Source: a virus. Taken from it: a stretch of 64,000 nt of DNA. Where the stretch lies: the IMG/VR virus record IMGVR_UViG_3300020378_001929, positions 1-64,000 of that record, one strand, 5' to 3'. The notes under the pieces were generated by a model, which did no database searches, had not been told where the DNA came from, and was given only the letters and a program-made list of their open reading frames with translations. Positions 2,481 through 50,900 of this stretch are shown here, piece by piece. The translations under genes and the position numbers were made by a program. The first letter of the stretch is position 1, and every line of letters begins with the position of its first letter.

Positions 2481-2963
2481 TTAGAAGGTGCTAAACCCAA
2501 CTCTAACAATATGATCGGCTGCTACATCGTCAGCATTGCCTACGTAGTTATATAAAAGTATTTTATCTACACCAAAGATTTCAAACACTTCTTGCTTACT
2601 TGAATTGTTTGTTACAACTGGTCCGACCACATAAGCCTGAGAGGCTCCCGTCTTATCAATGGAAGTTAAGGTCGTCCAAATACCGAAAGCATGCGAGTAA
2701 CCCAAAACACCAATCTGTATAGCTTTGTTGCCTCGGGCAACGGTTGTTGAATCTACCAGGATGTGCAGATATCTTTGATTTTCTGTTGTCAGTCCTTTAG
2801 TTGATGGTTCAGAAGCTCTATCCCAGTTGTTACCATTAGCAAGGGTGTTGGCATGGGTTAAGATATAGTTCTCATTGCCTACAAGGTTTTCAGAAAAAGC
2901 TACTTCTCCAGCATTTTTTGGTTGGCGGGTTCTGCCCCAGCTTGTAAATTTAAATTGAGACAT
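2481..2963 (-). CDS. Tandem paralogue 3 of a small head-region structural protein
   Basis: A 160-residue protein of unrecognised family, the most divergent of three adjacent paralogues. It keeps the shared N-terminal TSWGRTR(Q/S)PKN block, the TTENQRYLHILVD block (STENQR.(L/M)HL in the others), an aromatic G(Y/F)SHA(F/L)G.W block near residue 90, an EIFGVDKILLYN block near residue 128, and a final STF. The small beta-rich look, the position between prohead protease and scaffold, and the tandem copy number suggest a capsid decoration or fibre-type virion protein (inference). It ends about 100 nt before the scaffold gene; the gap holds the promoter and palindrome described separately. Confidence 0.7.
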   Translation of the reverse strand: MSQFKFTSWGRTRQPKNAGEVAFSENLVGNENYILTHANTLANGNNWDRASEPSTKGLTTENQRYLHILVDSTTVARGNKAIQIGVLGYSHAFGIWTTLTSIDKTGASQAYVVGPVVTNNSSKQEVFEIFGVDKILLYNYVGNADDVAADHIVRVGFSTF

Positions 2964-2973
2964 TGTATATTAC

Positions 2974-3414
2974 CTAAAAAGTTGATGCTGCGGCGTAAAA
3001 AAAGTTAGTTGCATGAATCGCTGTATCAGTTACAAAATATACCCTATCTGTTCCATAGATCTCAAAGATCTTATATGTGCTGGCGTCGTTTGCTGAGATG
3101 GTAACTGCATTTCCTCTAGTGTCCGTTAGCGGCGACCATCTACCTAGTGCGTATGAGAAACCATAAACTGTCACTGTGGTGTTGCCTTGAGTAGTTTCAA
3201 TACTGGTGTCCAACAAAAGATGCAAGAATCTTTGATTTTCCGTTGAGTATCCATGAGATGAATCGGTCAAGTCTGCGCCGGCAAGGGCAGATGTTGGGAC
3301 AGTGAGGGTTGCACCAGCTGCACTAGTGCCAGCCCTGTGAGATGACAGGATATTCTTTGGGGATCTTGTTCTTCCCCAGCTGGTGTTTTTAAAAACCTTT
3401 GGATCATGTGCCAT
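2974..3414 (-). CDS. Tandem paralogue 2 of a small head-region structural protein
   Basis: A 146-residue protein. Its first 17 residues are the same as in the gene at 3443-3898 apart from one Arg/Lys change (MAHDPKVFKNTSWG(R/K)TR), and 45 bp spanning the start are identical at DNA level in both. Downstream blocks STENQRFLHLLLD, YGFSYALGRWSPL, FEIYGTDRVYFV and the terminal STF align with both neighbours, while the intervening segments differ in length and sequence. This pattern fits a duplicated beta-structured virion protein with conserved core strands and variable loops. No catalytic motif or signal peptide is visible. It lies 10 nt upstream of the next paralogue. Confidence 0.72.
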   Translation of the reverse strand: MAHDPKVFKNTSWGRTRSPKNILSSHRAGTSAAGATLTVPTSALAGADLTDSSHGYSTENQRFLHLLLDTSIETTQGNTTVTVYGFSYALGRWSPLTDTRGNAVTISANDASTYKIFEIYGTDRVYFVTDTAIHATNFFYAAASTF

Positions 3415-3418
3415 TTTG
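3374..3418. repeat. 45-bp perfect direct repeat, copy 1
   Basis: Covers the first 13 codons and 4 nt of the leader of the 146-residue paralogue. It is identical base for base to 3858-3902, which covers the same place in the neighbouring paralogue. Contains the 12-bp palindrome GTTTTTAAAAAC. Confidence 0.9.
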
Positions 3419-3442
3419 TTTCTCCGTTATAATTCTAATTAG

Positions 3443-3898
3443 TTAAAAAGTATTAAATCCTAAATAAACCTTATCATTTGTTGCATCAAAACTGCCGCCG
3501 TGTTGCACATATATGCGATCAATACCTGCTATCTCTAATACATATTTTGTACATTGAGGACTATCTTGGCTATGTTGCAACTGATGTTGGTTGCTGTCTC
3601 CGTTAATCCAAATATTTTGGAACCCTGATCCGTGCCTGGTTAATCTTCCCCATCGACCCATGGCGTGGCTATAGCCCCAGATAGTGAACGCAGAGTTATT
3701 ATCTGTGGCTCCGGGAAAACCATTGACTGCTAAGTGCATATATCTTTGGTTCTCTGTTGAGTACCCCAGCGTTTTGTCTGTCGCGGTGGGAACGGCGGCG
3801 CTGGTGGTTATTTGTGCTCCTTGGGTGGCGGTAGAATTCTTTATGCCCCTAGTTTTGCCCCAGCTGGTGTTTTTAAAAACCTTTGGATCATGTGCCAT
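3443..3898 (-). CDS. Tandem paralogue 1 of a small head-region structural protein
   Basis: A 151-residue protein, first of three paralogues in transcription order. It begins 12 nt after the bS21-like gene stop. It shares MAHDPKVFKNTSWG with paralogue 2 and the blocks YSTENQRYMHLAVN, GYSHAMGRWGRL, LEIAGIDRIYVQ and final NTF with both others. It has an inserted Gln/Asn/His-rich loop around residues 105-120. The family is not recognised. The location in the head cluster makes a minor capsid or decoration protein the likeliest role, but a host-contact function of the variable loops is also possible (inference). Confidence 0.72.
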   Translation of the reverse strand: MAHDPKVFKNTSWGKTRGIKNSTATQGAQITTSAAVPTATDKTLGYSTENQRYMHLAVNGFPGATDNNSAFTIWGYSHAMGRWGRLTRHGSGFQNIWINGDSNQHQLQHSQDSPQCTKYVLEIAGIDRIYVQHGGSFDATNDKVYLGFNTF

Positions 3899-11562: not shown

Positions 11563-12030
11563 TCAATTAAGTGTACTAAGGGCAACTGCATTGGCGATGG
11601 TCGAACCGACGTAATAGACAATCAAAGTTGCTGCAATGCCGCCGCCGAACCACAAGTACCAGTAATCGTTTGGTCTGTCTAGAGCTATTTGTTCCAATTT
11701 CTGGTTCTCTACTTGAAGGGCTGCTATAGTTTTTTCGGAAAGCTCCTTATGATACTCCAAGTCTACAGCAAGTGAACCAATCCGCAAATCAAAATCTGCC
11801 TTTTGTTTCTCTAGTTCTTTAGAAATTTCAAGTTGACACCTTTCTTGTTCTGACTCTTTATCTGCGATTAATTTAGCTGCGGCAGGTATATTAAAACACC
11901 ATGCTTGAAAGGGTACTTTATCTCCCTTTTTCAACTTGGTAACTGTTGGCTCAGAGGCTACGCTTACTGTAGTAAAACTAATCAGTAACAGTAAAACCAA
12001 AAAGGCTTTCGATTTTTTCGCTAATTTCAT
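11563..12030 (-). CDS. Envelope protein with signal peptide, coiled coil and C-terminal TM; spanin-like candidate
   Basis: A 155-residue protein with a typical Sec signal peptide (MKLAKKSKAFLVLLLLISF..SVAS, likely cleaved after SVA). A short beta segment contains GDKVPFQAWCFNIPAAAKLI, then come a long coiled coil (about residues 55-115) and one C-terminal transmembrane helix (YWYLWFGGGIAATLIVYYVG). There is no lipobox cysteine after the signal, so it is not a classical o-spanin. The topology (exported coiled coil anchored at the C-terminus) and its start inside the upstream N-anchored coiled-coil gene resemble Rz/Rz1 spanin pairs that fuse the membranes during lysis. The lysis role is an inference from topology and neighbours. 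Confidence 0.72.
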   Translation of the reverse strand: MKLAKKSKAFLVLLLLISFTTVSVASEPTVTKLKKGDKVPFQAWCFNIPAAAKLIADKESEQERCQLEISKELEKQKADFDLRIGSLAVDLEYHKELSEKTIAALQVENQKLEQIALDRPNDYWYLWFGGGIAATLIVYYVGSTIANAVALSTLN

Positions 12031-12364
12031 CGGGGTTATTTTCCGCTCTCTTAATAATCTCTTTAACTTTCTTTTTTTCTTTTCTAGAAAGCTCTTTTTC
12101 TTTTATTGCATATTTCTTTTCTATTTTAGCAAGAGTTTCCTTATATTTTAAGATAAGTTCTTCTCTTTTTTGTATTTCTACATTTCTTGCATCTTGAAGT
12201 GCCTGTATTTGACTTTCGTACGATCTCTTTCTTGCGTTTAAGGTTTCAATAGCCGCTTGGTTGCTTTTTCGAGCAAAGATAAAAATACCGATTGACCATA
12301 TAGTCATGGCAAAAATCTTCCAATGCTTCTTTATAAAAAGCCAAGCTAGCCTTAGTTGAGTCAT
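11978..12364 (-). CDS. N-anchored coiled-coil protein; i-spanin (Rz)-like candidate
   Basis: A 128-residue protein with an N-terminal transmembrane helix (about residues 16-31, WKIFAMTIWSIGIFIFA), then almost continuous charged coiled coil with repeated EKK/KEKE. This is the architecture of inner-membrane spanins. Its ATG overlaps the upstream holin-like stop (ATGA), and the next gene begins 53 nt before its end in another frame, as Rz1 does within Rz. No endolysin is present in this window, so the lysis module would be incomplete or split. The call is from topology, not sequence similarity. Confidence 0.68.
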   Translation of the reverse strand: MTQLRLAWLFIKKHWKIFAMTIWSIGIFIFARKSNQAAIETLNARKRSYESQIQALQDARNVEIQKREELILKYKETLAKIEKKYAIKEKELSRKEKKKVKEIIKRAENNPDEISEKIESLFGFTVTD

Positions 12365-12581: not shown

Positions 12582-15500
12582 TTATAGATTGACGTGTGCG
12601 TATCCGGATTTCTTTTCTATATTAATCTGCATATCAACACAATCTTTTAAACTATCTAAGTGCGAAATAAGAAGCACTGTTTTAAAGTAACCTTTTACCA
12701 TGTCCAGTATGCGAACAAAGCCTTCCATGTTCTCTTCATCTAGTGCCGTACCTGGTTCATCTAATATAAATAGATCAGACTTCGGCAAACTTGACACAGT
12801 TAAAAACGCTAGTCGGATCGCCATGCTTGCAATCGTCTTCTCTGCGCCAGAACCCATTTCTAATGGTCTTGGATCGTGACTTGGGTGCTTAATAAAAATA
12901 TCAAGTTTGTCTTCGTTATTAGAAATAAATACTTCAAATTCTACAATGTTGGTAAGAATTTTTGAAATTTCTTGATTTATGTAAGGCAATCTTTCTTTGA
13001 TGATCTCATAGGAAACACCGTTTGGATGACAACAAACCATAAAAAGATGATATGCGGCGAAATCTTGCTCTAGTTGCTGAAACTCTCTGTGTTGTTGTTG
13101 AGTGTGTAGCAGCTTTTGTTCTGATGAGCCGTGCCTCTTGTGGAGTTGCATTATTTTCTGATCGCAAGTCGTTAGTTCTGATTCTTTATCTGAGATTTGC
13201 TTCTTCAAATTTTCTTTGTCTTTTAGGAGCTGCTTAAGGTTTTCGATAGCCTCTCTGTTTTCTTCGTATTCTGTTGCTTTAGTTTTCAAGCTGTCAAGCT
13301 CAACCTGCTCTTTAAATAAAAGACTATCAGCTCGCTCAATAATCAAATTACTAGTTGTTATAGAATTGGCGAGATCATCTCTTTTCCTAACTAACAAATC
13401 ATGCTTCTTTATATACTCATCTACTTTTACCTGCTCTTTGTGTGAATGCATCTTGCCAACATCGTTAATTTTGTTAGAAACTAGGGATATTTCCAAAGTC
13501 TTTTCTTCAACAGTTTCATTAATCAACGGAACACAACTAACACATAGTTTATCTTGCTCGGTGACCAGCAAAGTTTTTTGCTCTGACAAAGTTTTTAAAA
13601 GTAAGATTAAATTCTGTAATTCTTCATTAACCCTTTTGAACGATTCTTTCTTTTTCTTATACTTTTCAACTTCAAAATCTTCTAAAAATTTTTCGATTTT
13701 TTCATATTTAATTTTGCTCTCATCAAGGTTTTGTTGAGCTAGTATCTTTTTTTTATTTATCTGTAAGATAGACCTTTCTTTTTCAGTTATTTTTTTAGCT
13801 GTCATGACAGGGTCAATAACTTCAGCTGGAACTGATTCTATCTTGTCTTGCAAATCGTTCAGCTCTCTCGCCAAAAGAGACAGGTCTTCTTTTAACGTAT
13901 TGCAAATTGCCTTGTTTCTCTCAATTGCCAACTCACCCTTGACAATTTCTTCTTTGATATTTTTGATGTCTGTATCAAAATCAATACCCTCTAGGCGTCG
14001 TAGAGATGCTTTTATATCAGCAGAAGCTTCTTTAGCCATCTTAAACTTCTTGTCGAAGATCTCAAGATCCAAAAACTTTGCAAGAAACTCTTTTCTTTTT
14101 GTTGACCCTTCATTGATAAAAGACAGGGAATCTAGTTGAGATGCCATGGAGGTTGCTAAAAAATCCGGGAGAGTGCCAAAATACTTCCTCACATTCTTAT
14201 CAGTGTCTTGCCTGGAGGTGCCATTTAATCCTGTGTGGTTTCCTATCGTATCCTGTGAATAGAACTCCAGGTCAGTTGTCGCTTCTTGGGTTTCCACTCC
14301 CTTAAGTCTCTTGATATACTTATTTGACCTTCTTTCGATGATATAATCTGTATCATCAACTTTAATTGTTGCTGTTGCTGTGCACTCATCCTTATTTTGG
14401 TTTATGATGTTTAAATTCTTGCGAATAGATTTAGAAGTAGAATTGTACATAGAGTACAGCAAAGTGTCTACGATAGAAGATTTGCCCGAATAATTCTTTC
14501 CGAAAATACCCACAATGCCTTCTAACTTCGTGAAATCAATAGTGTTCCCTTCGCCATAATTGAAGAGGTTGTCCCACTCTAACTTCTGAAGGGACCAGTT
14601 GACATTTCTCATCACATCTTCATTTTCTTCAATTTGCTTATTAAACTCTTTGTTTAACTCATAGACCCTTTCTAGCACTTCTTCTGTCGCTTCATATTCT
14701 TTCAAATATTCAGCCATTAAAGTCTCCTGAGTTTTAATGTCTCGCAAGTCCTGTTTCTCTAAACCCGCAGGAGCTGCAACTTTGATTTGTTTTCCAGCTG
14801 CTCTATTAAGGTAGGTTACTGACTCTGGATTGTATTTATACTTTACAATGTCTACTGCCTTTCTTACCTTATCCAAGGAAACATTGCTTTCTGACACTAT
14901 TCTAAGGCGGGCGCCTTCTGGTGGTTTTGTTCTTGGTAGGTTTCCCTTCTCACTTAAAGTTAGAGTGATAAAAGGTTTTGGATTATTAAATGTGATAAGC
15001 TTATTAGTAAAAATATCTTTACTTTCAATATCCCATAGTAAATAGCCCTTGTCTAGTGATTCTCCGAAGTTCTGCTGAACTGTTGAGCCGGCATACCATA
15101 TCCGACCTTCCTTATCTAGTTTCTGTGTTTTATGAATATCTCCAAGGAAAGCAAAGTCAAAATCTTCAAAAATTTCTATGCTGTGATCTCCTCCTAGGGT
15201 CCAGTTCTGATCTGTCTTAGATTTGTCAATTGCGCCATGGTACAGAGCTATGTTGACTAGGCTCTGGTCTGTTGGGCTGACCCAATTCTCCTCATCGAAC
15301 ACAGATAAAACATTTAAGCAAAACTTATCATCTATTTTGATCTCGCCGGCGTTTTTGAGTAAAATAAGGTTAGGGTCATCTATAGCTTTAGCGATTGGGG
15401 AGAGGGCATCTTGCCTTGAGCCATTACGCAAATTGCCGTCGTGGTTTCCTAAAATAATATAGGTTGGAGCAATTGCAGCAAGACTTTGAAAAAAGTCCCG

Positions 15501-15680
15501 GCACATATCGACAAATTCTGGTGAAATTTGTGTTTTTGTGTGAGCTATATCTCCGCAGTGGATAATGTAATCCACCTTTTCTTCTTTTAGTGATTTGTAA
15601 AGTTGACTGAATACTTCTTTGTATTCAAAGTGATATTTTAAATTCCGGATGTGAGTATCCGCAATATGCGCAAATCGCAT
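12582..15680 (-). CDS. Single-chain Mre11-Rad50 (SbcD-SbcC; T4 gp47-gp46) fusion
   Basis: Recombination nuclease complex normally made from two proteins, here one 1032-residue ORF. Residues 1-240 are the Mre11/SbcD phosphoesterase: IADTH (D8, H10), HCGD (D44), LGNHD (N79, H80, D81), YHGA (H148) and LGDIHK (D181, H183). About 240-350 form a capping/linker region. From 365 it is Rad50/SbcC: Walker A GKNYSGKSS (394-402), two long coiled-coil arms, a CVSC zinc hook (C713, C716) at the expected midpoint, the signature region EMGSGAEKTIASMAIRLA, and Walker B FILDEP (D974, E975) with a downstream ISH switch His. T4 gp47 and gp46 resect DNA ends for recombination-dependent replication. GGAGG precedes the ATG and a sigma70-like promoter lies upstream. 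Confidence 0.95.
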   Translation of the reverse strand: MRFAHIADTHIRNLKYHFEYKEVFSQLYKSLKEEKVDYIIHCGDIAHTKTQISPEFVDMCRDFFQSLAAIAPTYIILGNHDGNLRNGSRQDALSPIAKAIDDPNLILLKNAGEIKIDDKFCLNVLSVFDEENWVSPTDQSLVNIALYHGAIDKSKTDQNWTLGGDHSIEIFEDFDFAFLGDIHKTQKLDKEGRIWYAGSTVQQNFGESLDKGYLLWDIESKDIFTNKLITFNNPKPFITLTLSEKGNLPRTKPPEGARLRIVSESNVSLDKVRKAVDIVKYKYNPESVTYLNRAAGKQIKVAAPAGLEKQDLRDIKTQETLMAEYLKEYEATEEVLERVYELNKEFNKQIEENEDVMRNVNWSLQKLEWDNLFNYGEGNTIDFTKLEGIVGIFGKNYSGKSSIVDTLLYSMYNSTSKSIRKNLNIINQNKDECTATATIKVDDTDYIIERRSNKYIKRLKGVETQEATTDLEFYSQDTIGNHTGLNGTSRQDTDKNVRKYFGTLPDFLATSMASQLDSLSFINEGSTKRKEFLAKFLDLEIFDKKFKMAKEASADIKASLRRLEGIDFDTDIKNIKEEIVKGELAIERNKAICNTLKEDLSLLARELNDLQDKIESVPAEVIDPVMTAKKITEKERSILQINKKKILAQQNLDESKIKYEKIEKFLEDFEVEKYKKKKESFKRVNEELQNLILLLKTLSEQKTLLVTEQDKLCVSCVPLINETVEEKTLEISLVSNKINDVGKMHSHKEQVKVDEYIKKHDLLVRKRDDLANSITTSNLIIERADSLLFKEQVELDSLKTKATEYEENREAIENLKQLLKDKENLKKQISDKESELTTCDQKIMQLHKRHGSSEQKLLHTQQQHREFQQLEQDFAAYHLFMVCCHPNGVSYEIIKERLPYINQEISKILTNIVEFEVFISNNEDKLDIFIKHPSHDPRPLEMGSGAEKTIASMAIRLAFLTVSSLPKSDLFILDEPGTALDEENMEGFVRILDMVKGYFKTVLLISHLDSLKDCVDMQINIEKKSGYAHVNL

Positions 15681-15706
15681 ATAACCTCCGCTTAGTGTTT
15701 TCCTAT

Positions 15707-15735
15707 ATTATATACAGTTTATAAGCGGGAGTCAA
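15707..15735 (-). promoter_or_regulatory. Sigma70-like promoter for the Mre11-Rad50 fusion gene
   Basis: Minus strand TTGACT (15735-15730), a 17-nt spacer, then TATAAT (15712-15707), with the ATG 27 nt downstream of the -10 box. Spacing and hexamers match host vegetative promoters (one mismatch in -35). The -35 box overlaps the stop of the 57-residue gene. Confidence 0.7.
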
Positions 15736-15914: not shown

Positions 15915-16841
15915 CTAAAAATCAAGTTTATAATGTAAATAGTCCAAATCTGTTATAAAGTCTGCATTTTGTTTTCGCGATAGAAACTCATCTCTCGGCA
16001 TCTCGGCAAGGTCGGCATATGGCTTCACAGGGATGCTCTTACTGGCGACTCCATACTCTCTAAACTTTTTTGCTATTCCAAGTTCTTTTACTTTCGCGTC
16101 CTCATCCAAAGCAAGGTATACTTGAGTTTTATTACGGCATATTTTTTCAAATAACTTGTGGTTCTCTCTAAGGGTTGACCCTAGTACAGGTATACAATTA
16201 TCGTGACGAACAGCATCAAAGGCGCCTTCGACAATGACGATATCGTCATCCCAGTTGATGGACAGGTCATTGAAAACTATGTTCTTGCTTGCTTTAGGGT
16301 TTTTGTATTTCATCCAGTCATCCACAAACGACCTAGCTACAAAATAATTTAATTTTCCAGACTTATTAAAAGAGGGTATGATAATCCTTCCTTGATATTC
16401 TCCGAAATCACAATATCCTATCTTCCACTTTAAAATATCAAGATCTGAAATATCTCTAGAGTAGAGATACTCCAAAGCGCGCGTTTTGTCTCCTGATTTT
16501 TGCCCTGTCAAAGTCTTAAATTCTCTTGGCAACTCTACGACCTGCTCTATATCCTCTGGTGTCTCTTGAAAAATGAATTCATATTGAGACAAGTCAAGCT
16601 CCTCTGCAACACCGGTCCACTGCACATAATGTTCCGGGGCGTACTTGCTAATCAAATAAGATATTTTATTTCCTGAAAAGTTGCAAACCCAGCACTTAAA
16701 TGCGTTTTTATCAACGTTAATAGACATCTTAAGTTTGTCGTGATTGCACTTGGGACATTTGAATAAAGTTTCTGTTCCCGTATTCCAGCATCTACCGAAG
16801 GCATCTTTAAGTATCTGAAGCTTTTCTGACAATTTTATCAC
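15915..16841 (-). CDS. DNA primase, zinc-ribbon plus TOPRIM (DnaG/gp61-type)
   Basis: Synthesises RNA primers for lagging-strand replication with a phage helicase not in this window. In 308 residues, an N-terminal zinc ribbon has CPKC (C29, C32) and CWVC (C50, C53). The linker and core contain LEYLYSRDISDLDILKWKIGYC and GRIIIPSFNKSGKLNYFVAR, typical of DnaG-like primases. The TOPRIM fold shows IVIVEGAFDAV (E205) and LALDEDAK (D246, D248). It is short compared with bacterial DnaG (about 580) but near phage primase size. It overlaps the RuvC-like gene by 35 nt and is followed 9 nt later by a small gene, indicating one operon. Confidence 0.9.
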   Translation of the reverse strand: MIKLSEKLQILKDAFGRCWNTGTETLFKCPKCNHDKLKMSINVDKNAFKCWVCNFSGNKISYLISKYAPEHYVQWTGVAEELDLSQYEFIFQETPEDIEQVVELPREFKTLTGQKSGDKTRALEYLYSRDISDLDILKWKIGYCDFGEYQGRIIIPSFNKSGKLNYFVARSFVDDWMKYKNPKASKNIVFNDLSINWDDDIVIVEGAFDAVRHDNCIPVLGSTLRENHKLFEKICRNKTQVYLALDEDAKVKELGIAKKFREYGVASKSIPVKPYADLAEMPRDEFLSRKQNADFITDLDYLHYKLDF

Positions 16842-17358
16842 CCGCTAACGCTATAATTATACTGTCACACATATCCAGCATTCCTGGCTTTGGATTTCCG
16901 TGTTTTGTATATTCTATCTTAATTTGCGGATAATTGTCAAGAACAAACTGAAGGACTTTTTCTTTTGCATTGTCTCCCCTTTTTATACCGACTCCGGCAG
17001 ATTTACGTGCCGATGATGCCGCAAGCATCTCAGGAGAGATTCCGAAAAGCTCATAACACTGCCAAGAAACGATGCCATTATATCGAGATAGCGTTGACAA
17101 GGTCTTTGCCGAAGAGAATCCCGACCTAAATGACTGTAGGGATTGCTCTATAAAAATATCTGTAATTTGGTATGAACTCTTTATATCTTGCAACTCTCTC
17201 TTTAAGAGGGCTGCTTTTTCATACAACGAAGGAAACTTTCGCTTGTTTCTAGTGTCCCAAATAAAATTTTTGCTTATTTTACCGTCTATAATAATTGTAG
17301 CGCCAGTTATAGATGTCGAGACATCAAGACCCAGCACACTCTTTGTCGAGGTGTTCAA
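16807..17358 (-). CDS. RuvC-like Holliday junction resolvase / RNase H-fold nuclease
   Basis: A 183-residue protein with the RNase H/RuvC fold acidic residues: VLGLDVSTSITG (D12), FIEQSL (E71) and MLDMCDSIIIALAG (D162, D165). Length matches bacterial RuvC (about 173). It would cut branched DNA before packaging, the task that endonuclease VII (gp49) has in T4. A basic loop GVGIKRGDNAKEKV near 122-135 may touch DNA. It overlaps the J-domain gene upstream and the primase gene downstream, 35 nt each, so the three are tightly co-translated. It could alternatively be another RNase H-fold nuclease; the active-site pattern favours RuvC. Confidence 0.85.
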   Translation of the reverse strand: MNTSTKSVLGLDVSTSITGATIIIDGKISKNFIWDTRNKRKFPSLYEKAALLKRELQDIKSSYQITDIFIEQSLQSFRSGFSSAKTLSTLSRYNGIVSWQCYELFGISPEMLAASSARKSAGVGIKRGDNAKEKVLQFVLDNYPQIKIEYTKHGNPKPGMLDMCDSIIIALAGDKIVRKASDT

Positions 17359-28932: not shown

Positions 28933-31900
28933 TTAATCGTAATTATAGCTATCGATTTTGGCTTCTAGCTTAATTAGTTCCACAAAAGAAAAGTAATCGT
29001 ATGGCCAGTTGTAATGAACTAAGCGTTTCCCAGTGCTTGTTTTGCCTGGGAGGGCGTCTGGAAAAGTCCCCTTTGTCACCGCAGGGCGGCTAGCCCTAAG
29101 ATACTCTAGTCTTTCTAGGTTTTGTGACCGCGGATCAATAGACCTTCTTCTTATTGTTTCCAAATTGTCGATACCTCTTTGCTTGACTTTAAAAACAATC
29201 CATCTAGTCTTGTTTTCTTCATCAGGAGAAAACAAGTTTCTTGGCTCAGAGACGGGAGATAGATTCTCTCCTGTCAAGTTTGCTGTTTCTAGGTAGTGGC
29301 TTACAAATGAAATATCGTTGTGGCTCCTGAGTCGACCTTCTAGGGCTCTGTTTGAGTTTGATTTTCTTGCAATCGCAGAACTATTCAGAGATTTGGGGTA
29401 AAGGTTCTGCCAAATATTGCTTAAATCTTCTGCATCGAAAGATGCATGGAATTGAAAAAAGTACATCATAAATGGGTCTTGTACCCTTGCGTTTTCTGGT
29501 ACATTTATAAAATCAAACTGAGGTGGGAGTATGAACTCTTCCATCATAAATAGTTGATATTCTATTGCGTCTAGTGGTCCACTGTTGAATGGGGTTTTCA
29601 TTCTACCGTCAAGTGTTGCGCGGAATTCATTATAATCTTCTAAGGTCAGGATCCTATCCGTTAAAACATCAGTCTCCTTTGTGATTTTCATGTTTCTCAC
29701 ATTGTCACTTGCCTTGTTGTACATATCTTCATTAAATTTGATAAATTCAACTCTATTATCTAAATCTTCACGCAAAACATATGGTATAGCCACTATTGCT
29801 TCTTTGACAACCTTCCTATCTTCAACTGTACCAACTTTATCTCTGTACTTTTTTGCTAACTTTAGATTAGCTGCAGATGGTTCTTCTTGGTCATTGAACC
29901 CTAATCTTGCGGCGAGACCAGGGGTGTTGGCGCCAATGGGGACGTCTATTATTGAAAGGTAGTATCCTTTTTTATCCGACTCTTTTAATAATTGTCCTTT
30001 TTGATGCCACATTCCAGTAGAACCAGTCAAAAAGCTGCCGGGAGTAGTTCCTTCTCTGGGTGCGCCAACTCCGTCATAGTACCTATCCCATTGGCGTTCT
30101 TTCCATGGGGATCCAGATACTTGGACTGTCGTACTATTTGCTAAGTCATAAGCTGTTGCTTTTACTGACTTAAAATCTAAAACTGGACTTTCCCATTTTG
30201 TTTGTATTACCCATCTCTCTCTTAAGTTGTTGGGATCCAAAGGCACCACATTCAAGGCACCATCGCCATCGGCGCCGTGTCCCCTGATTTGATCAAAGTT
30301 GTCTGTTCTTAGGGCTGCTATCATACCAAGATTCAGGGAAGCAGAAAGCGACATTGCGTGGTGATAATTTGTGTTGCTATGAGTGCCAGTTTTGGGATCA
30401 GGAACATCGGCATTGCTAGCCTCTTCAACAAAATTATAATATGCATACGAACTAGAGTTCATGACCTCTCTAACTGTATAATCTTTTGTAACAGTAGGGG
30501 AAAAGGTCACTTCAACATACGGTGCGCTGTTTGCGTCCAAAAACGAAGGCACATAGGGCATATACCCATGAGTGTTGGAAACTTTCGTTGTTGTCTTGGT
30601 AAAACCTGCAGATCCCGTTGATTGAAACGGCGTGAACACATCGGATGTTGCGTTTGAATATATATGCCCTTGATATGATGAAGTTATGTGCGAACTGTTC
30701 TTTTCACCATAGGCATTTGACCCAAAGAAAGCCACCCCATGATCGTTTGATACTGTTGACGTACCAGAACCGCCCTTACAATTCACAAACACCCCAACGT
30801 TAGAGGTTGCGCCGATGAGGGTAGTCATTGCGTTCGACGGCATGACGTTGTCGAGATAAGCCTGAGTTGATGAGATGTTGGTAGATTCTTTATAGTCTAA
30901 ATTTGTAGAACCAGATATCACCAGAGTGCTGCCGTCTATATGAACCTTGTTCGTTCCAGATGTTGAAAACCCTAAACCAAGCACAGAGCTTGTTAGGAGT
31001 GTTCTGATTGTTGCCATGACCTCTGCCGCAGATGGCGCTTTAAGTCCGGCGCCGGCATCTTCTTGCACCCTAATGGCTGCAAAATTGTTTGCCACTGTTG
31101 GGTATGGGAAATTTTGGTTGCCAGAGATGTTCCGGAAAGCAACTGCTGTTCCGAGGTTGGCTGTACCTTGCGCGCTCGTGACGCCGAATCGGTTTGCTCG
31201 CGAAGTTGCTGGGACTGTTACCAGACCTTGCAGGGCTCTTTCGATATAATTTTCAATACTGTTATCTGCATCATCAACCCAAGAATAAAAACCAGAAGCA
31301 CTATGATAAAGCATTATTTCAATATTGTCATCTGGACCTTGGATAAAGATTCTAGGATTTCTTGTGTAGTGTCCAGCAGTCGACCCGGTCAAAGTGTAAC
31401 CGGCATTTGAATTACTTGATCCAGATGGATGCCGCATTGTTAACTTGATGTGCGCTGGAATTCCAACGGGGTTACCTTGATACTTGGTTATGGCAACACC
31501 GGTGCCATCGCTACCTGCTTCCGCTACGGGTGGACCGAAGGCTGAGTGCCTGTCATACATCATGGTATCAACGTTTTCCAAGTAAATTCTCATCTTGTAA
31601 TCGTTTCCAGAAGTAAACGTTTGTTTTCCTGGTTTTGAGACCTTTGTTGTCAAATCCCCATCCTTAAGGAAAAAGTTTACAGTCTCTGCGGCAAAGTTTT
31701 GCATTGCCAAAGTATAGGGAGCCAGCTGGGATGTCAAGCTTCCTTCATTGTTTACAAAGAGCGAACCTATGTCTTTCTTTGCAAGAGTATTAAAAGATCC
31801 GAATAGTGCTGGTCTCTCAATAATTTTATTAAACTGTTGATTTCCATAAATAAGACTAGCACTTGGGTGAGGTTCGTTGTCATAAATTCTAACGTTAAAC

Positions 31901-34900
31901 AAGGAGCTTGGACTCAACATTTCCTCAAACTCTATTCTCTTGGACACATGCCCTCGAAGTCGGGGGATACCGTAAACGGTGCTGGATCCACCAAGCCCGC
32001 CACGATTGGTCAAGTTAATTACAGATGCAGTAAAAGGCAAAGGCGCTTTAAGGGAACCTGTGTTATCTCTAAGAATTAGTTTCTTGTCCATACCATCTTG
32101 CGCGAGAGGATGTGTTCCGCCAACTTGATGGGTGCTTGTGCCGGCACTGCTGTCGCCAGTTTGACCAATCTCTGCTTCGGCATTCAACATTAACCATGGC
32201 ACACTTGAGCCGAAGTCTGTATTGAAGACTATTTGCGAGTTCCCTTTGTAGTTCGCCATTATATCATTGTTTGACGCGTGATACTGTCCGACATCGGAGA
32301 AAGCAGCGTGGATATTTTGGATTGATCCATAGTCAGTACCATCGTTTCTAGGGAGTCCCCTGTAAACCCCACCAAACGCACCGGAAAAAATAGGATAATC
32401 TGTGGCAAGACCTGCCTTAATTGAGTTAAATAATATACCAGGTCCAAATAAAGGTTTCGTAACCTGGTATCTGGATGCGTTGGCTCGAAGTTTTATAAAC
32501 CTTTTCTGCTCTGTGGAGCTTAATCCGCCTTCATCTAGCTGAGATATATCTATCACATTATCATTTGTAACAACAACATCATCGGGTAGATAATTCTCAT
32601 AAAACAATTCTGCTATTTGCACGGTTCTTTCTGCAGGATAAAAGCCTTTATAAGGCAAGAACTTAGTAACTGCTTGACATCTAAAGTTTATCCTAGCATG
32701 TTCAAGGTTGTTTTCTTTGTCTTGGCGATCTCCGCTGACCTCTTCATCGTATATCTGGAAATACTTAAGAAAATCTGAATTAGAGTATGTCTTAAAAAAG
32801 TTACCGCCGTCGGTAACATTATTGGAAGAACTCAAGTATACGGCTCCAGTCAATATCAAGAAATCATCTCCAATGTTTGGGTACTCTCTTTTAGACTGTA
32901 CAATATCGTCAACAAATTCACTGATTCTAAACTCTGGCACGAGGGAGTGATCTTGTCCTAATATCCTGGTTTCTGCTGCATAGTCAGAATAAGAATCATA
33001 GAAAGGTCCCAGCGTTCCACTTGCTGCTTCCCACTTTGCTTCGCCGGCGAGATAAATAAAATTTCCGTAGGACTGCGGGACTCTTCTGTTATAAATAACA
33101 GAATGTGGAGGTGTACCATATAAGTTATTCATTCCTAGAGGAAATGTACTGTAATCGTTTTGGAGAATGCCCTCCCCTCTTGTTCCCTGCTTTCCTGTAC
33201 TAGAAGTTAAATAAATTGTGTCGCGCGTCATAAAAGATACTCTTATGTCTACTGGTGTTGACCCAAAATCTCTTCTAGAGTCTAGCGGCCATGTCGAAGA
33301 CGTTATGTGCAGGATGCCGCGGTGGGGGTTAAAGCTCCCAGTATGCTGCATAAGAACCAGGAGAGCATCTTTGCCAGCGAATGAGTTTTGCGGACTTTTT
33401 AGCTTTTTATCTTCAAATTCTGGGAATAACCTTAAAGTAGTACCGGCGTTGGATCCGCCGATGATTGACCCTGCTGCAGTTCTCGTTGTTGCCCTTTCAG
33501 GTCGAGTGATAGAAATAAGTTTAGCGCCGAAAATATCGTGAGTTACATTTCCTGATAGAATTAAGTGTCGGGTGTCTCTATCTGAGTTCCATGGAAAATA
33601 CTTAAACTTTGTTCTTTCTCTTGCAAATTGACTATAAGTGTTTACCTCTCGGGGGTAAATTGTTTCCTTATAGTTTATTTCTAGCATTTTTTGCTGAACT
33701 TGATAAGAATCAAGTAAGTTATAAGCGTAATCAAAAGTTCCATGCGTACGCTTTTCTTTGAACTGTATGTCCTTAATAAAATCTGAATTTGCAAAACTTG
33801 TAATATCGTTCGGCGCGGTGTTGGTGCTGATAGTGCCGGCTGATTTCAATATCTCTGGAATTGGCATTGACAGATCTTTGAAGTATTGTAATTTTCCAAA
33901 CCAACTTAACTCGCGCTGGCGTTGAGATAAGCGCGGGTAGAACTCTTTGTCTCTGGAGGAGTTTACAAATTCTCTTGGATCTCTAGGGTCGCGACCAAGC
34001 GTAAACTTTTCATCCTTATTTAGGGTGCGGTTTGGTATTCGTTTTGACCCCAAGATTATACGAATTGGATTGAACTTTCCAGTTGCAACAGGGTCAACAT
34101 AATTTTTGACCACTCTGCTTGCATTATAAGCTGGCTTTGAGTCCAAAAACCTAGCCCTCTCGTACGGATCAATAATATTGGCATGCGAGCTGGCTGCAAT
34201 ATTCATCGATGGTGCAACTTCTGACCTTACCAGGTAAGACGGAGAGGTTATTGCCCTTTTCGGGAAAGCCAAGAACGTTCTAGATATCGTATTGGTTTTC
34301 CGGTGAGCGCGGGCTATTGGATGGTTGCCTGTTCTAATTTGTTTCCAGGATGGCCATCCATACGGACCTTGTCGATGAACTATGATGCTGTTTAATAAAG
34401 ACTTCTCTCCAGCATACTTATCTTCACCTCCAGAGTGAAATGGAGGGTTTATTAATTCCTCACCAGCTAGACCGTTCATGAAAAATTGATTTAAATAATT
34501 AGCACTTAGGCGAGACATGTCTCCTGTGACATTTGTTATCTCAAGGGATCCATACCCCACTGTATTAGTGGAAGAGGAGATTGGTTCATAAATAGCAGCG
34601 TTTAATCCAACAAAATCAATAGCTCTTGTTTGCGAGGGATTTGCTGACTGTTCACGCGCTAACCCATAAAACATATTATTCTGATATGCGTAATATACCA
34701 CTTCACTAGCGCTTAAAAATTGTATCGATTTTGCACTGGCGCTAGTATAAGTGTGCTGATGTCCTAAACCTGCGTTCCTGCTTACAAAATCAGACTTTGT
34801 ATTGACTGCGCTTGCCGTGATCCAAGAATAGTGAAAATCATTTTGTGGTATCGGATGCTGCACGAAAAAGTTATCTGCTTTTTCCACTAACGACGCTTTG

Positions 34901-37900
34901 CCCCCAGATGATCCCAAAGAATAGTTTCGATTAGTTACGTGAACAGACTGTTGCGCTTTGCCGAACTGCGTTACAATAAAGTTGCCCGGGTTTTTGACGC
35001 TTAAAACAATGCTCCAGGTGTCTCTCGAAGCGAGCCCTGATGTCGTACCCTGATTAAAGCGATGATGAAATGAAAGCGTTGTAAAATTGCTGGCTTTGGA
35101 GTCGCCGTGGTGGTCAACAGATGCTGAAAGATGGTTCCGGAAACCCTCCGCAGACAGTGCAGTATTCGGGTGGTCGAAAAGTGTCTTTATCACTTCGGCT
35201 TGCATTCCGGTGAGCGAGTACCCGTCCGGTGTGGTATCGAAATTGCTTCCGCCACTTGTGAAGTTTGACGCCGCGGCGCCAACGGCCAATTCCTTTGGTG
35301 AGCCAGTGCCGAAATCTATAGCTATTGTATCCCCTATTTCAAGCGGTTGAAACATAATTATGCTTGCTGGAGTATAGTAAGTTCCTCCTGATCTTTGTCC
35401 GCCGCGGAGAGATTTTTCTTTGTGAAGTCTATTGAGGACTGCTCTTGTTGATAGATTTCTATAGTTTAGACCGTTATAGACCGAATATTCTTCTGACTCT
35501 TTATCTCGACCATAGACCCCTTGTGTTTCTGGACCACCAGGAGACGAAAACCTGTTAACAAATACATGCTTTGCTGTGCCCCTGGATGGCACTGTATAAT
35601 CAATTATACCGGCTCTAAGTTGTGTTCCTGTTGTGACAACGCTTCCACTATCCTTTACATAGGCATTGTTCAGGCTTCTACCAGACGTTTGAACAATGTC
35701 GTAGTCTTCCCTGTAGTTGCCCATTGCGATAGGTGAGATGCCAGTATTTTCTTTTATGTTTCGTATATTTACTGGACCTTTGACTCCCATACCGCGTGGA
35801 GTATATGACCGCGGACCGGTGGATTGCTTCATTGTAAAAACAGTACTTGACGCCGACAATATGTAGGCTTCTGGTCTGTCTTTGTCCGCTGTTCCAAATT
35901 TCACTCTTCTGTGTGGCATGCCACCGACAAATTCTCTAGTAAAAACCCCTTGCATAACACCATAATCATCATCATGATTATTTGTTAGGGTTAATTTGTC
36001 CTTAAAATTAGAAAAGTCTGTACCAACAGAGGAGCTGTACAAAGTAAATGGGAAAATCATATCGGCATCTGCGTCTAAATACCCATCTGTACCTGCCGTG
36101 TTAGCAATAGCTGTATATATATCTTCATGCTGAGGGTCTATAACATCATTGCAATTCTTGAACTCATAAATGTCTGATTTGTTTACAGTTATTTCTCCAC
36201 CAGAAGCGATTATTGGTTTGTGCAAAAATTTATTTTTTGACGCGTTTCGATTTGATCCCATATCTAAAGTTCTAAGATGATCACCAACAAAGTTATATGG
36301 CCTAGATAATCTTCTAAGTACGTATGTAGATCCGGCGGCAGAACTTACTACTGTGTTTATCCTTTGTCTTATCTGCTCTCTGTCAGGGTTTACATTATCC
36401 GACACTGATAAAACCTTGTCTCTTTCTGCTCTTTCCTGCCACCATAGACAATTTTTCGGATGATCTTGGAAAGTTGTTACTACCGTGTTTGTTCCTCCGG
36501 CGAATGCTGCCGAGATTGAGGCACTCGAAAAAGTATGTTGATGAGTTGTATCTTGTAACTGCGCTGACAAATGATTAGTCAACGAGTTGCTGCCTCCTCC
36601 GGAATCATAATCTACACTAATACTTGCAGCCGAGTGGAGACCTGTGAAAAATACCGTTCGAACGGTGCCGCCGGCGCTTGCAGTCAAGCTTTGGAGGTTG
36701 GTCCCATCAGTTCCGTTTACTGCGGCGATTATACGATCTCTCATAGTGGTGACTTCATTTGGAGGCACTGTACCAATTGGAATCTCTCTATCATCCGAAG
36801 GCGGATAAGTTGAGTTACCAGTAAATGTTAATGTTCGACTGAGTCCTCCGTCGGAAACAAGTATTGAGCTGCTAATAAACTGTGATCTATTTGAGAAAGC
36901 AGATGTATTCAAAGTAAAAAACTTTTTCTGCCTTCTTGTTGCAGCGGTTATTGTAGTATTACCTGCGGTGCCAGCCGTTGCTTGAGTCAACGTTACAGTA
37001 TTTGTTCCAGCAGAATGATCAAGAACGATTTTACTGTTGGAAGAACCAGCGTTATGTCCCGTGGCACCGTTGATGGCAGTGACCAAATTAGCATAGGTGG
37101 TATCAACGTTTCCTCCATTAATTGATACTGCTATGTTCCCACCTGCAACCGTGCCGCCGCCGGCGGCAGAATTAAATTCATAAGTCTTGCTGGTCCCGTC
37201 TGTGGAAATTATAGTTAATGTATCCCCGTCTTCAGGATTTCCAGTGTATACTATTGATCCGGATGCAGCAGTCTGAGTTGATGTTGATGATGTAAGGAGC
37301 GGGGCATGACCATGCTCCCAATCATATAGAAGCTCGTTTACACCTAATATTTGCCCAACAAGCTTTGGATCCTTGTACTCAAATTGAGGTGCTTGATGCT
37401 TGTACTTATTTCTTTCAAATACGTGGCTCTCTACTACATCCTCTAAGTTTAAATTCATATTCGAAGTCGCTGGTTGCAACTGTCGAAGAAGATTTGCGAG
37501 AGAAGAGTCTATCCATTTATAGTATTCGATAAAACTTTCAAGATCTATCTTGTTTTCTACTCTAGCGAAGAATCTATCTCTCAGTTTCTCCAGTGTCTTA
37601 TATTCTTGGCGATATTTGTATACTGGCTCACCTATCAGATTGTTAAAGGCGGTGGCGCCAGCTAACATGTTAAGCATCTCTTTAGATATGACTTGGTACA
37701 TGCTTTTTTCATATGTATGCAAGTATGACATTGGCTTACTGTCTAGAGTAAAAGAGTCAACCTCTCTATCTTTAATTTCTATTTTGGACTCTGCCTCAAG
37801 GTTATCCACATTTAGATATCGAACATTTGGTATATATTCCTGTCTAATGGACCCTTCTTGGTGCTGCAAGTTGTGAGTCACTGCTGGGTATTTGTACCCT

Positions 37901-44986: not shown

Positions 44987-47900
44987 TTAATCATCTTGCT
45001 CACCAGGATCTGGAAACGTCCCAAATGGCGAAGCTGAATTTTCGTCATCACAATTTGAGATATTTGCATTGGATGGAGCATCTTGTTGTTCATCAAGAGT
45101 GCAGGATCTGAATCTTTTATCTCCAGCAAGCTCTGGAGTTGATAGTGCCAAAACAGTAAATGGAGTCAAGCTATGTCCATATCTTTGTAGGTTCCATGGT
45201 GAGTTTTCTGACGGCCATGATTCTTCGACGTCGCGACAAGGGATTGATAAACTGAAGTTTCCATCTACAATCGATACAGGTCCCTTTATAATATATCCCG
45301 TAAGACGTTCAATGGCGCGACCGAGAGGCTTATAATCAAAACTGGAGAATAATTTTGCTACCCCATATGGCACATCTACTATTGGTCCTACCAATATTGA
45401 AGAGTATTTGCCGTCTTTCGTTCCGGATCTGGGCGCTGTTCCGTGGAGACCGGCTGTCATGTTTCGCCGGCGAACGGTTGGTCCATATTGCAAACCTTCC
45501 ATCGTTAACTTATTTATATCGCAATTGTTGTAGTGACCTTTCATTTCTTTGTAAGCAGGATCAACAACGTTTGCAATTCCCCTAAAAAACAGAGACGGGA
45601 ACTGCAGGAATAACTGCTTAAGCAGTTCTTTAAACTGTTTTGTAAAATCTGCAGGAAAAGGAAAATCAAAACAATCTATCGCGTTTAGGTCCGATGAGTT
45701 GCTATTCATTATCTGTTTTAAGAACTCGGCTTTGCTTAGATTGTTAACTGCCTCTATCCCTTGTTTTTGGTTTATTCCAGCGATGCTCAATAAAGCCGCG
45801 AGACTTGCTTTTGGAGTATCAATAAAATTCGACAAATCACCGTAACTGGAAAACGCGGAAGTTATAAACGCTGTGGAGACGGCTTGGTATCTCTTTACCG
45901 GATATATGTATTGAAACAATTGTTTCGCTTCCGGTGATTCGATTAGTTGCTCTGTCATCCAGGGCTGAAGGCGTTTATAACTTTCCCTGAAGGCGTTTAA
46001 ATCTATGCAGTCATTCACTCCCTCGCCAAAATCACTGATTACTTTTTTATATTCTGCAATTGGTACTGAAAAATACTTGTTTTGTTCCCCTTCCATCAGA
46101 AAACTTCTATATTCTTCTGACACTTCTTGGATTGGACTTTCTTTATCTAGTAAAAATCTATTGTATCTACCTTCTTCACTGTCGTCATCTGCTGACAAAT
46201 GTAAAACACTATTAGAGACTAGTCTTGCTATTTGCGTGAGCTTAGAAGATCCCATAATATCTTTTACAACTTGACTATTTATAATCCCAATTGATACAAA
46301 ATTATCTCCAAATAGTCGGTTATTGATACCTGTGTAACCTTCAAATGCTGTTGTCCAGTCTTCTTTTAATTTTCTTACAGTCGCAGCATGATTTCGAAGA
46401 ACGTTGTCTTTGGTCCGGACCAGATTTGATATGTCATTACAATATATCCTAGGCATTAGATAGTTGTAATAATCTTTTATCGTTTCGAAGCTTCGTACTC
46501 GGAGAGTCTCATTTCGTCGGATTCTGTCGTTTAGAAACTTCAACTTTGCAGCGTCATTGATTCCAACATTAAAAATATTTTCGAACATGCGCTCGTCAAA
46601 GAAGATCAAATAATCTTCTACTTTCCCGTTCCAAATTCTGTAGTTTCTTGGAGATACAAAAGAGAAAGGTCCAGTACTTTTAGCTATCTTAGATATGGTG
46701 GTAGAATTTCCGAGAGGTCCTATTCCCAGGTCTGATTCTTCTAATTCCCTTCTGGAATCTATCATCAACCCTTCTATGTGATATGAACTAAGAGCATCTC
46801 TGAATAATGCACTGTATATTTCCGGGATGTCTTCTCTTCCCCAAAAGTCGGGATTTAATAACTTATCCAATATAAGATTGTTGTATTGTCCTTGCCGTGG
46901 GGCATTTGCATTTCCTAACTCATAATTTGGATCATAAAATTCATGATAAAATTCATTTGCTTGTTCAATGATAAAGTCTAGTGAAGTAGGGACCCTATCC
47001 AGCGTGTTTCGATCTAGTAAATTCTCGTTATTCAGGTACTCACTTTTTAACCTGTTCCAATATTCAAGCGGTGAACGTCCGTCTTCCCTGACTCCGGTGA
47101 CCATATTCCGGCGGTTTTCTCCTAAAGTAACAATGGAGTCCAAATTCGATGCCGCGCGTACGCCGTGACGTCGAGAGAAATATCCACCGGACGGAGCGAC
47201 CCATTTAGCGGGGCGCCCGCCTGAATTGTTGTACCTAAACAGAAAATCTGTAGAGGGGAATTCTTGGACGGCGCGCGCAAAGGATATTTCTGGCTTTCTG
47301 CAAACTAAGGCGGCGATGAACCAAAGGCATGCTGCTGCCCAGTCTGCCTGGTAACTGTCGCCTGACCGATTATAATCATTTCTTGTAAAAGATCTGTCAC
47401 GGTTTGGTATAAACAGTGTCCCACCCTCACGGTAAGGCTCGTCCGCGGTGATTCGTCGATTGAAGCTTCCGCCGGAGAAACCTGCTACTTGACTCGAAAA
47501 ATTATAAGACGACACCATCCAAAGCAGTCCCAGTAGCTGCTGAGGAGAATAAGGATCTGCAGGCCCTGCATACTCTTTAAGATACCTAATAAATCGCTTA
47601 ACTACAGAAAGGCGATAGGGCGCCTCGATGCGGTGTGAATTATCTCTTGTTGCCTCGGATTTTAAAGTAAAAGATGACTGGTATATTGCTAAATCACAAA
47701 GTCTCGTGACAAAATGGTCTACGAAATCTATAGCTTCCAAAAGCAATTCGACGTTGATGTTGAGTCCTTGATAATTATTTTTAAATACCTGTACACCTTC
47801 AAAATTAAAGCTTGGCCAATAATTTTCATTCTCGTATGTATCTGGGTTAATATTTTCATAAAATAGCGCATTATTCTCTGGGTCTTTTTTCAATATACTT

Positions 47901-50900
47901 AATATAGTGTTTGTGTTTTGAGTGTTGTAAAAGCCATCCATATCAAATAAAATATCTGGGGCTCCTTGAATTAATGGTCCGCCGCGGTTTGTTATACCAA
48001 GAGGCTCTCCATCTGGAAAGTGCGAGTCGATTAACACTCTTTGTACACATGATTTTATAAAGTTTGAAAGATCTACAAGACTAAAGGTATTATCTGCATA
48101 AAACAGTGAAGCTCCGGCGTTCTTAAAATTGAAAGTCTCTAGGGTATTATAATTAACCAAAGACTCTCCTAGCCCGTCTGATATTAGCCCTTCTTGTTGC
48201 GATGGAGTAAAATGATCTGTTCCGAAGTAGTTCCAATTTCTTAAGTCAGTCACTTGTAATGGTTGATAGGTTTCTGCTCCATTTGAAAGATACGGATTTC
48301 CTTCTGTCGCAATTGAGCTAATATCGTTTTCTACCCCAGGACGAAGAGTCACAAAGCCTGGTTGCCTGTGTATCTCATCAAAATTATTTCCGCTCTTAAA
48401 CCCGTCGACACCTTGGGTGCCACTATCGTACGAGCCTCTATTTTTCCGAGGGAGAGTCGCAGATGCCCATCTGGTGAATGCGTATCCATATCGAGTTGCG
48501 ACGGTGTCATAAGTTGGGTCATTGCGATTGGCACTGCCGCCGATTCGGTGAACATTTTCATGAAAATAATAACTTGTTGACAGCGGGTATTTTTGAGTAC
48601 TACCGCCTGCCATTGGGCGAGGAGAGGTGCGAGAGAGGTGTCCCCAAAGTGTGTTTCTTTGTCTGCCTTTCAAGTACCAATTAAAAATATTAGACAAGTT
48701 GTGAATCACTCTTAGCGTTCCAACCTTAGACCTGGATTGTCCTCTAAAGATCCCTTCTTCGCGGGTCGCATAAAACAGGTTTACAGACTGCATATGATGT
48801 CTATAGTCTCTTCTTGTGTCTTCAAAGTATTTCTCTTTTGACGAAAATGATGACTGCGGAGTAAAAACTGGTCCTAGCTGAAAGTCTGCTTCGCGAGTTA
48901 AAAGCTGCCCTCTATCAAGAAATAAATCATCTAGTTCTTGTACTGAGTTATAAGATGCTTTTTTTGTCTCGTTTTCAAAAACTCTAGAATAAATCCTTTC
49001 TATCGATGAGTAGTAAGAGCTTCCACCTAATTCATAATTTGATTCGTTTCGTACTCCAGAACCGTGAGATCGCGTGAAATCTGTTGAGAATTCTGGGACG
49101 TCCCCGTAAAGTTCTTTAAGCCTTTCCATATTTTCTGTCTCGCCAACAACCAGTCTTCTAGATCTTGCCCTTTGTATAAAATACACGTACTCATTGACGA
49201 TCTCTCTCAATGCTTCGTGAAGTTTTTCCATATTTTCAGTGAAGCCATCACCGGGCAACTTGTTTATGTTCCTTATGTACTCCGGTGGTACCACCTTGCA
49301 ATAGACTCTTTCTGGAAGGTTGTCTCCTGTGAATATCTTAGTTATGAGGACGCGTATCGGGATCTTGTACATGTTTGGGGGTAACAAGTCTTCTCCAGAA
49401 GGAGGGATCCCGCTTTCTATATCAGACACTGAATGGTTAATCACCAATCTCTTAGACTGCTGCCTTGCCTCCTCTATTTCTTCTCCATCGAGTCTATCTA
49501 AATTTAGAAAACTAGCGTTGAGAGACGACTGTTTTTCATCAATTAACCAAAACTTTGTCATCTCCCTATTTGTATGAGGGTCAATCCCCATGGGGCGGGC
49601 AAGATAAACATCAGCCGGACCTTCTTGATCTGACTCTCTAAGGTAAAAAACTCTTCCATATTGAGTTAGTTTAGGATCAGCTGTTCCCTTATTTTGGTCC
49701 AAGAAAGCGTTTCGGAACGCTCCAGGCTGATACAAACTATCAATGACTGTCTCCAGGTTATCAAAAGAGTTTTTTAATCTAGGAGACAAATTTGGATCAA
49801 AGTTTAAAACTGCAGGGTCGAAAGTTTCGCCTATCGTAAACGATCCGTGCAAGCCAGCTATTATTGAAGCCGAGTCACTAAACTCAAATACTGTCTCTAC
49901 CCAGGTCTCTTCTTGTCCGTTTTCAAACCTATCTTTTATCCTTTCGAACTCAGTTTCGTTTTCAACAATGCCGATTGGATTTTCAAATATAACAGTTGGG
50001 ACTGAATCCGACCTGTATTTATGAGTCAAAATATCATTACTTTGTCTCTCAGGGGTTTCTTCGATATCCTCGATGGACATCCCTCTGCCATAGTCATAGC
50101 GGCTTTGCATGTTTGTTGCGGCGATAGCTCTAGGTTGCAATGGCTTCTCTTGGGGGTCATCGTCAAGATAAGTAGTTGTAGTTGGCAAACTAAAATTGGG
50201 TTGTTCACCTGATGTGTTTGAGACTCCTATCCTTGAAAAATCTAAAACTTTGTCCATAAATCGACCATCATTTGGAGCTTGATATACATTATATCCCTGG
50301 CTTTCTAGCCATAAAAAGTCCTCTCCATTAGATGGAAGCACATAATACTTGTTTTCGTCTTCTCTTGTTTTCGCGATGTAGTTGGTAAAATTGTTGTAAT
50401 ATGAATTAACAAGCGACCCGTTTGGTTCAAAAAACTCATCAGCATAGCCCAAGTCATTTGCAAAATCTTGAAAATTAATTACTGAGTCTGCGTACACCTT
50501 TCCATTTAGCAAGGTGGAATTGTTGTGAGAAACTATATCTTGTGTAAATTTTATTATTCTTCTCTTTTTCGTTATAAAGCGTGTTGGTGTTCGGCGTATT
50601 GTTTCAGGAAAACCTTCTGCTTCCTCAAGCTGAGTGTTTTTTAATTCACCTCCTGGAGCGTCGGGATCTTCGTCATAGTGCATTAATCCTCGATAGTGTA
50701 ATGCGATCTTTTTAAGATCATCTGAGTTTAGAGAACCGTTGAGACCATCTATAAAGTCGTCGATATGGTATATCTCATGCTCAGTGTTTAAATCTGAAGA
50801 CGATTCAGCACTGGCTCCAAGAGCGAATGGGTTATCTTCATCTCGGGGTGGGATTTCAGGTCGCACTGTAAAGGTGTAATCAAGAGGATTCACTGGGTCT

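Follow-up and report, generated by a model that had tools for sequence, protein, structure and literature searches.

The locus at positions 12582 to 15680 of the viral DNA analyzed here (64,000 nucleotides in all, referred to below as the window) raises the question of whether a phage makes both the nuclease and the ATPase of the Mre11-Rad50 complex (SbcD-SbcC, gp47-gp46) as one chain and, if so, what that chain would do. We conclude with high confidence that the gene encodes a phage single-chain Mre11-Rad50 of the type of Mimivirus R555, which would form an M2R2-like dimer and carry out end resection for recombination-dependent replication. That a gp47/SbcD-like protein is joined in one chain to a gp46/SbcC-like one is well supported; the evidence for it, and for the steps beyond it, is taken up in turn.

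One Minus-Strand Frame Matches Both Mre11 and Rad50

A frame of 1032 codons runs on the minus strand from an ATG at 15680 to a stop ending at 12582, with no internal stop, and the plus strand across the same positions is full of stops. These limits and the single uninterrupted frame are as the initial annotation had given them; it had not stated the strand, which is minus. Pfam profiles matched Metallophos in the N-terminal part (3.5e-14) and SMC_N in the C-terminal part (5.5e-14), while PHROG profiles matched SbcD-like phrog_100 over residues 1-359 (1.4e-37) and SbcC-like phrog_77 over residues 291-1027 (3e-51). Each half thus has independent profile matches well above chance level. NCBIfam profiles also matched both halves, and a PDB sequence search placed Mre11 and Rad50 chains on the expected halves. 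The gene and its parts are as follows.

12582-15680, minus strand: fused Mre11/SbcD - Rad50/SbcC single-chain gene, 1032 aa (open frame; Pfam, PHROG, NCBIfam, PDB sequence, and Foldseek matches)
14991-15680, minus strand: calcineurin-like nuclease core, residues 1-230, with D8, H10, D44, N79, H80, D81, H148, D181, and H183 (Pfam Metallophos, motif alignment, AF2 model)
14805-14972, minus strand: Mre11 capping domain, residues 237-292 (strand/helix pattern in the AF2 model; Foldseek match to Mre11 2q8u)
14622-14738, minus strand: helix-loop-helix, Rad50-binding region of Mre11, residues 315-353 (AF2 helices 315-326 and 333-353; assigned by position and order)
14601-14621, minus strand: junction linker, residues 354-360 (unstructured between helix 333-353 and strand 361-370; codon constraint continuous over 295-365)
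14061-14600, minus strand: Rad50 ATPase N-lobe, residues 361-540, with Walker A 394-402 and Q-loop Q515 (Pfam SMC_N/AAA_23, alignment)
13548-14063, minus strand: coiled coil, outgoing arm, residues 540-711 (AF2 helices)
13533-13544, minus strand: zinc hook CVSC, residues 713-716 (sequence)
12951-13511, minus strand: coiled coil, returning arm, residues 724-910 (AF2 helices)
12585-12950, minus strand: Rad50 ATPase C-lobe, residues 911-1032, with signature SGAEK 944-948, Walker B D974-E975, D-loop L980-D981, and H-switch H1007 (phmmer to P. furiosus Rad50, alignment)

A weak phrog_77 match at 11978-12364 (0.0031) was considered as a second SbcC-like gene and rejected, being read as a coiled-coil artefact. 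An Rfam search of the window gave no match.

The AlphaFold2 (AF2) model was built on an alignment of 33 phage sequences (the window and viral contigs only) and reached a pLDDT of 81.4 with a pTM of only 0.49, so that the relative placement of domains and the packing between them are unreliable in the model. Along the chain it orders nuclease, cap, two helices, a 7-residue link, and the Rad50 head (first strand at 361), and its best Foldseek matches were Mre11-Rad50 and SbcCD complexes. The capping domain and the C-terminal Rad50-binding helices are predicted at 237-292 and 315-353, respectively, by AF2 together with Foldseek matches to Mre11 structures. Because the two helices occupy the place of the Rad50-binding helix-loop-helix of Mre11, the linker comes to about 7 residues; a linker of 9-12 residues has been estimated to be enough to span the distance (Yoshida et al., 2011; PMC3175470). 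The CVSC motif sits between long helices in the model, as expected of a coiled coil with a CxxC hook.

The Frame Is Kept Intact in Most Relatives

We confirmed 347 relatives in IMG/VR, and the best 80 of the 347, which were read, carry the gene in one frame, up to the ends of their contigs; the sole internal stop among these 80 is a TGA at the conserved Ser199 in one relative (L026). In a second sample, picked by hook motif and with fused loci counted by tblastn, 84 of 93 loci were in one frame and 9 of 93 were broken; eight of these nine are interrupted within the nuclease domain, and L178, the remaining one, has a degenerate frame. The single frame is kept in relatives down to 26-31% identity that were assembled independently from many metagenomes. 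Differences from close relatives concentrate at codon position 3 right across the junction: the window and its relative L002 differ over codons 295-365 at 4, 2, and 37 sites in codon positions 1, 2, and 3, respectively.

These counts bear directly on the reading that an error of assembly or sequencing created the frame by joining two normally separate genes. That reading draws on the usual arrangement in T4, cyanophages, Herelleviridae, and T5-like phages, where the two genes lie side by side. However, many independently assembled relatives share the one frame, and codon constraint is unbroken over the junction; together these exclude an assembly join, and we give the artefact practically no chance. 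The hidden frameshift for which the initial annotation had proposed a check is excluded by the same one-frame relatives.

One gene could also yield two products, a full-length chain plus a free Rad50 chain made by internal initiation, with altered stoichiometry. In the window an ATG at codon 322 is preceded by AGGAG, and in 37 of 75 relatives the region holds an in-frame start that comes with a stretch of 4-6 nt resembling a Shine-Dalgarno (SD) sequence. No SD-bearing start position is conserved in the family, however, the codon-357 ATG of the window has no SD, and on the minus strand the junction has no reported promoter-like site nearby. Initiation near codon 360, which had been named at the outset as a way to two mature chains, finds neither a conserved start nor a conserved ribosome site there among the relatives. 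With no internal start position conserved, a second product from within the gene appears unlikely, and we regard two chains at altered stoichiometry as quite improbable.

The single-chain reading also agrees with gene content in long relatives. As the record that contains the window is a fragment of 82.5 kb, the presence of second copies and of a recombinase was judged from relatives. Each of 11 relatives of 100-203 kb has one Metallophos and one SbcC-like match, both in the fused gene, and no separate second copy of gp46 or gp47 was found in these 11.

Phylogeny and the State of the Nuclease

We built a maximum likelihood (ML) tree on the nuclease and ATPase heads of enzymes of both kinds, fused and split. 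All 18 rows with an R555-type fusion fall into a single clade (99/98), which holds the window, contigs of marine and freshwater origin, Microcystis phage Mel-JY01, and two huge phages that are uncultured; the grouping with R555 itself rests on published features, since the R555 sequence was absent from the collections searched. For Listeria phage LMTA-57, the fused enzyme groups within Herelleviridae beside the split EFDG1 enzyme (99/94), so that phages must have gained such a fusion on at least two occasions. The fusion of Rhizobium TM61 forms a long branch and is unplaced.

The initial annotation had described full sets of phosphoesterase and Rad50 motifs. Every nuclease residue it cited (D8, H10, D44, N79-H80-D81, H148, and D181/H183) is found in the sequence and the motif alignment, as is every Rad50 position (Walker A G394-S402, CVSC 713-716, SGAEK 944-948, and D974-E975), and in the alignment the bipartite Rad50 head is complete, including Q515, the D-loop at 980-981, and the H-switch H1007. 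The word "full" needs qualification, as three motifs depart from the canonical form. All ligand positions of the calcineurin-type phosphoesterase motifs I-V are occupied, with two substitutions: the second motif is GDIAH (43-47), a GDxxH with H47 where GDxxD is expected, and the last is GDIH (180-183), where cellular enzymes have the canonical GHxH, so that D181 stands at the position held in P. furiosus Mre11 by the metal ligand His206. In the Rad50 signature, SGAEK replaces SGGE. Both nuclease substitutions are conserved across the R555-type fused clade, except that LR756501 is without the GDxxH.

With D181 where the second histidine of the metal site would be, the activity of the nuclease could be altered or weakened, although this Asp is conserved in the R555-type fused clade. 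Taken further, the two substitutions would suggest that one chain is made with a dead or altered nuclease and that the protein serves mainly as a DNA tether and clamp; Asp likewise replaces His206 in Mimivirus R555 (PMC3175470). Against this, the remaining ligands are invariant or nearly so in the fused clade, Asp is a plausible metal ligand, the nuclease is under strong purifying selection, and GDxH is present in a split T5-like phage enzyme too. A protein reduced mainly to tethering and clamping is unlikely on this evidence, and an ATP-gated nuclease remains the preferred reading.

Start, Promoter, and Gene Neighborhood

The following features lie upstream of the fused gene.

15684-15689, minus strand: Shine-Dalgarno GGAGGT of the only well-supported start
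15707-15735, minus strand: sigma-70-type promoter TTGACT-17-TATAAT, directly upstream of the gene (11/12 matches; site kept in nearly all marine relatives checked)
15915-16841, minus strand: DNA primase-like gene, upstream neighbor (phrog_47, 1.6e-38)
16807-17358, minus strand: RuvC-like resolvase gene, syntenic neighbor (phrog_159, 3.6e-5)

A promoter like TTGACA/T-17-TATAAT stands at about the same place in those marine relatives, with differing surrounding sequence. Among loci with at least 2.2 kb upstream (n = 110), the primase precedes the fusion in 109 and the RuvC-like gene is present in 81. Downstream of the fused gene, the window encodes a large terminase and a T4-type portal, the latter found in all seven records tested. 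A RecA/UvsX-type recombinase is encoded by 10 of the 11 relatives of 100-203 kb.

Elsewhere in the window, three consecutive genes at 2481-3898 (160, 146, and 151 aa) encode similar small proteins of the MAHDPKVFKNTSWGRTR... type and are probably tandem paralogues. Minus-strand frames of 3949 and 3992 codons at 28933-40782 and 44987-56965 jointly take up more than one third of the window.

Proposed Function

The ATP-gated end-resection and tethering role has its basis by homology in T4 gp46/47 and SbcCD. Translation from one start would give an N-terminal calcineurin-type nuclease and cap tethered to the Rad50 ATPase head by the Rad50-binding helices and the linker of about 7 residues. Two such chains would dimerize via their nuclease domains and via ATPase heads with ATP sandwiched between them, and their coiled coils would meet at the zinc hook, so that one gene product would make up an M2R2-like complex. 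The fusion would reasonably imply a 1:1 stoichiometry, with one nuclease per ATPase head. The complex would resect and tether DNA ends, on which the UvsX/RecA-like phage recombinase would start recombination-dependent replication and end repair, as with T4 gp46/47. ATP-gated end resection and end tethering that feed strand invasion by the phage recombinase are the most likely role on our analysis; we infer the dimer architecture, the nuclease activity, and the part played in replication or host DNA breakdown.

Probable Hook Exchange and Split Nuclease Genes

The hook at the tip of the coil varies within the family. Among 98 family proteins it is CxxC in 36 and PCGx5C in 60, the latter a non-standard form 13 residues longer; the CVSC of the window is of the CxxC type, and most relatives have PCGx5C. 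On a tree built without the tip (a quick tree with SH-aLRT values only), hook type changes at least five times. L004 and L011 are 99% identical over residues 1-200 and 36% identical in the hook region, which also carries a 13-residue indel. CxxC and PCGx5C alternate in close relatives with heads more than 90% identical (L011, L012, L004, L030, L033, L068, L119, and others). Exchange of hooks by recombination seems likely from these comparisons, with the caveat that coils diverge fast in any case.

In several relatives the nuclease is divided, always at one conserved site that lies between GDIHKxQ and YPGSxxQQN. A tail resembling EIDExDLxxYPGAEVIG is added to the first part, and the start of the second part is near MSKKIRIRTKKPW. 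An HNH-like ORF of about 305 aa lies at the split point in LR756508 and L237. Split-nuclease records are L083 (4665-5582), L237 (20-937), L144, L161, L165, L196, L204, L227, L247, and L121; apart from the two with the HNH-like ORF, the split relatives appear to be remnants with overlapping or closely spaced ORFs. Homing-endonuclease "genes in pieces" are known for the nrdA of phage Aeh1, and the split nuclease with its HNH-like ORF resembles that case.

We tentatively suggest, as a possibility that is less probable than its failure, that the hook is swapped as a cassette, which could act as a specificity tag against pairing with the Mre11-Rad50 of another phage or of the host, and that the nuclease has repeatedly been divided by an HNH-associated insertion at a single site, leaving two genes that overlap. 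If true, the family would hold a functional three-state series of separate genes, fused gene, and nuclease in pieces.

Comparison with Known Systems

The initial annotation supposed that such a fusion was not well described in phages, and this does not hold. Our literature search found one direct description of natural Mre11/Rad50 fusion proteins (PMC3175470), in which fusions were reported in Mimivirus R555, in Bacillus phage 0305phi8-36, and in five bacteria and six eukaryotes. R555 homologues that abound in viral fractions from the sea were argued there to belong to phages, and primase genes were noted on R555-like marine scaffolds (Yoshida et al., 2011). In the same work, R555 is described with His where GDxxD has its third Asp and with Asp at the place of His206 (PMC3175470). 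A search for other single-chain SbcDC proteins, as had been proposed, turned up the IMG/VR relatives and, among others, cultivated phages in which the fusion is deposited as one CDS (Mel-JY01, Listeria LMTA-57, and Rhizobium TM61). Our finding confirms and extends the 2011 description, the fusion as such being already known, and it leaves the known picture of Mre11-Rad50 function unchanged. Through T4-type portals, terminase, and the RuvC-primase-MR order, it firmly connects tailed phages with the R555-like sequences found in the environment in 2011, and it shows that the fused form is the usual one in a large group of phages from the sea and fresh water, shared by hundreds of ocean and lake phages. 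A compact single chain of 1032 aa with a short coil also offers a practical one-gene model for the mechanism and structure of Mre11-Rad50.

Other homes for the fusion were considered. For plasmids, tblastn gave partial or split matches only, and a bacterial home was rejected, as the 11 matches in collections of metagenome-assembled genomes (MAGs) were mostly on short contigs resembling binned phage DNA. Fused genes occur in bacterial and archaeal MAGs (L093, which is CP070664.1, L091, L092, L094, and L096) and are at most 54% identical to the protein of the marine phage; one belongs to a WOR-3 MAG whose record calls it a chromosome, and there the gene is cut by masked bases. These MAG-borne genes are likely binned or integrated phage DNA.

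Mimivirus R555 shares with the window gene the nuclease-ATPase order in one chain, the short linker, GDxxH and GDxH, an aquatic viral distribution, and neighboring phage primases; it differs in being a protein of 1351 aa from a giant virus of amoebae, whereas the product of the window gene has 1032 aa and its phage a T4-type portal. Microcystis phage Mel-JY01 (WWT39521) and its IMG/VR kin have a full-length fusion, 29% identical over the whole length, with a primase upstream and one small ORF between, as in the window. Mel-JY01 belongs to a separate subclade, however, and has a B-family DNA polymerase that was not found in the marine relatives searched. Listeria phage LMTA-57 (Pecentumvirus, AID17555) likewise has a single nuclease-ATPase chain, of 1009 aa, near a primase, but as an independent fusion within Herelleviridae. 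T4 gp46/gp47 and the cyanophage homologues are the same enzyme pair, with likely the same role in recombination-dependent replication; they differ in being two genes with small ORFs between, with canonical GHxH and an SEGEK signature, where the window has a single gene and its 100-203 kb relatives no second copy. E. coli SbcCD has the same succession of nuclease, cap, ATPase, coiled coil, and hook, and its solved complexes are among the top fold matches of our model, but it consists of two separate subunits with canonical motifs and longer coils (SbcC, 1048 aa).
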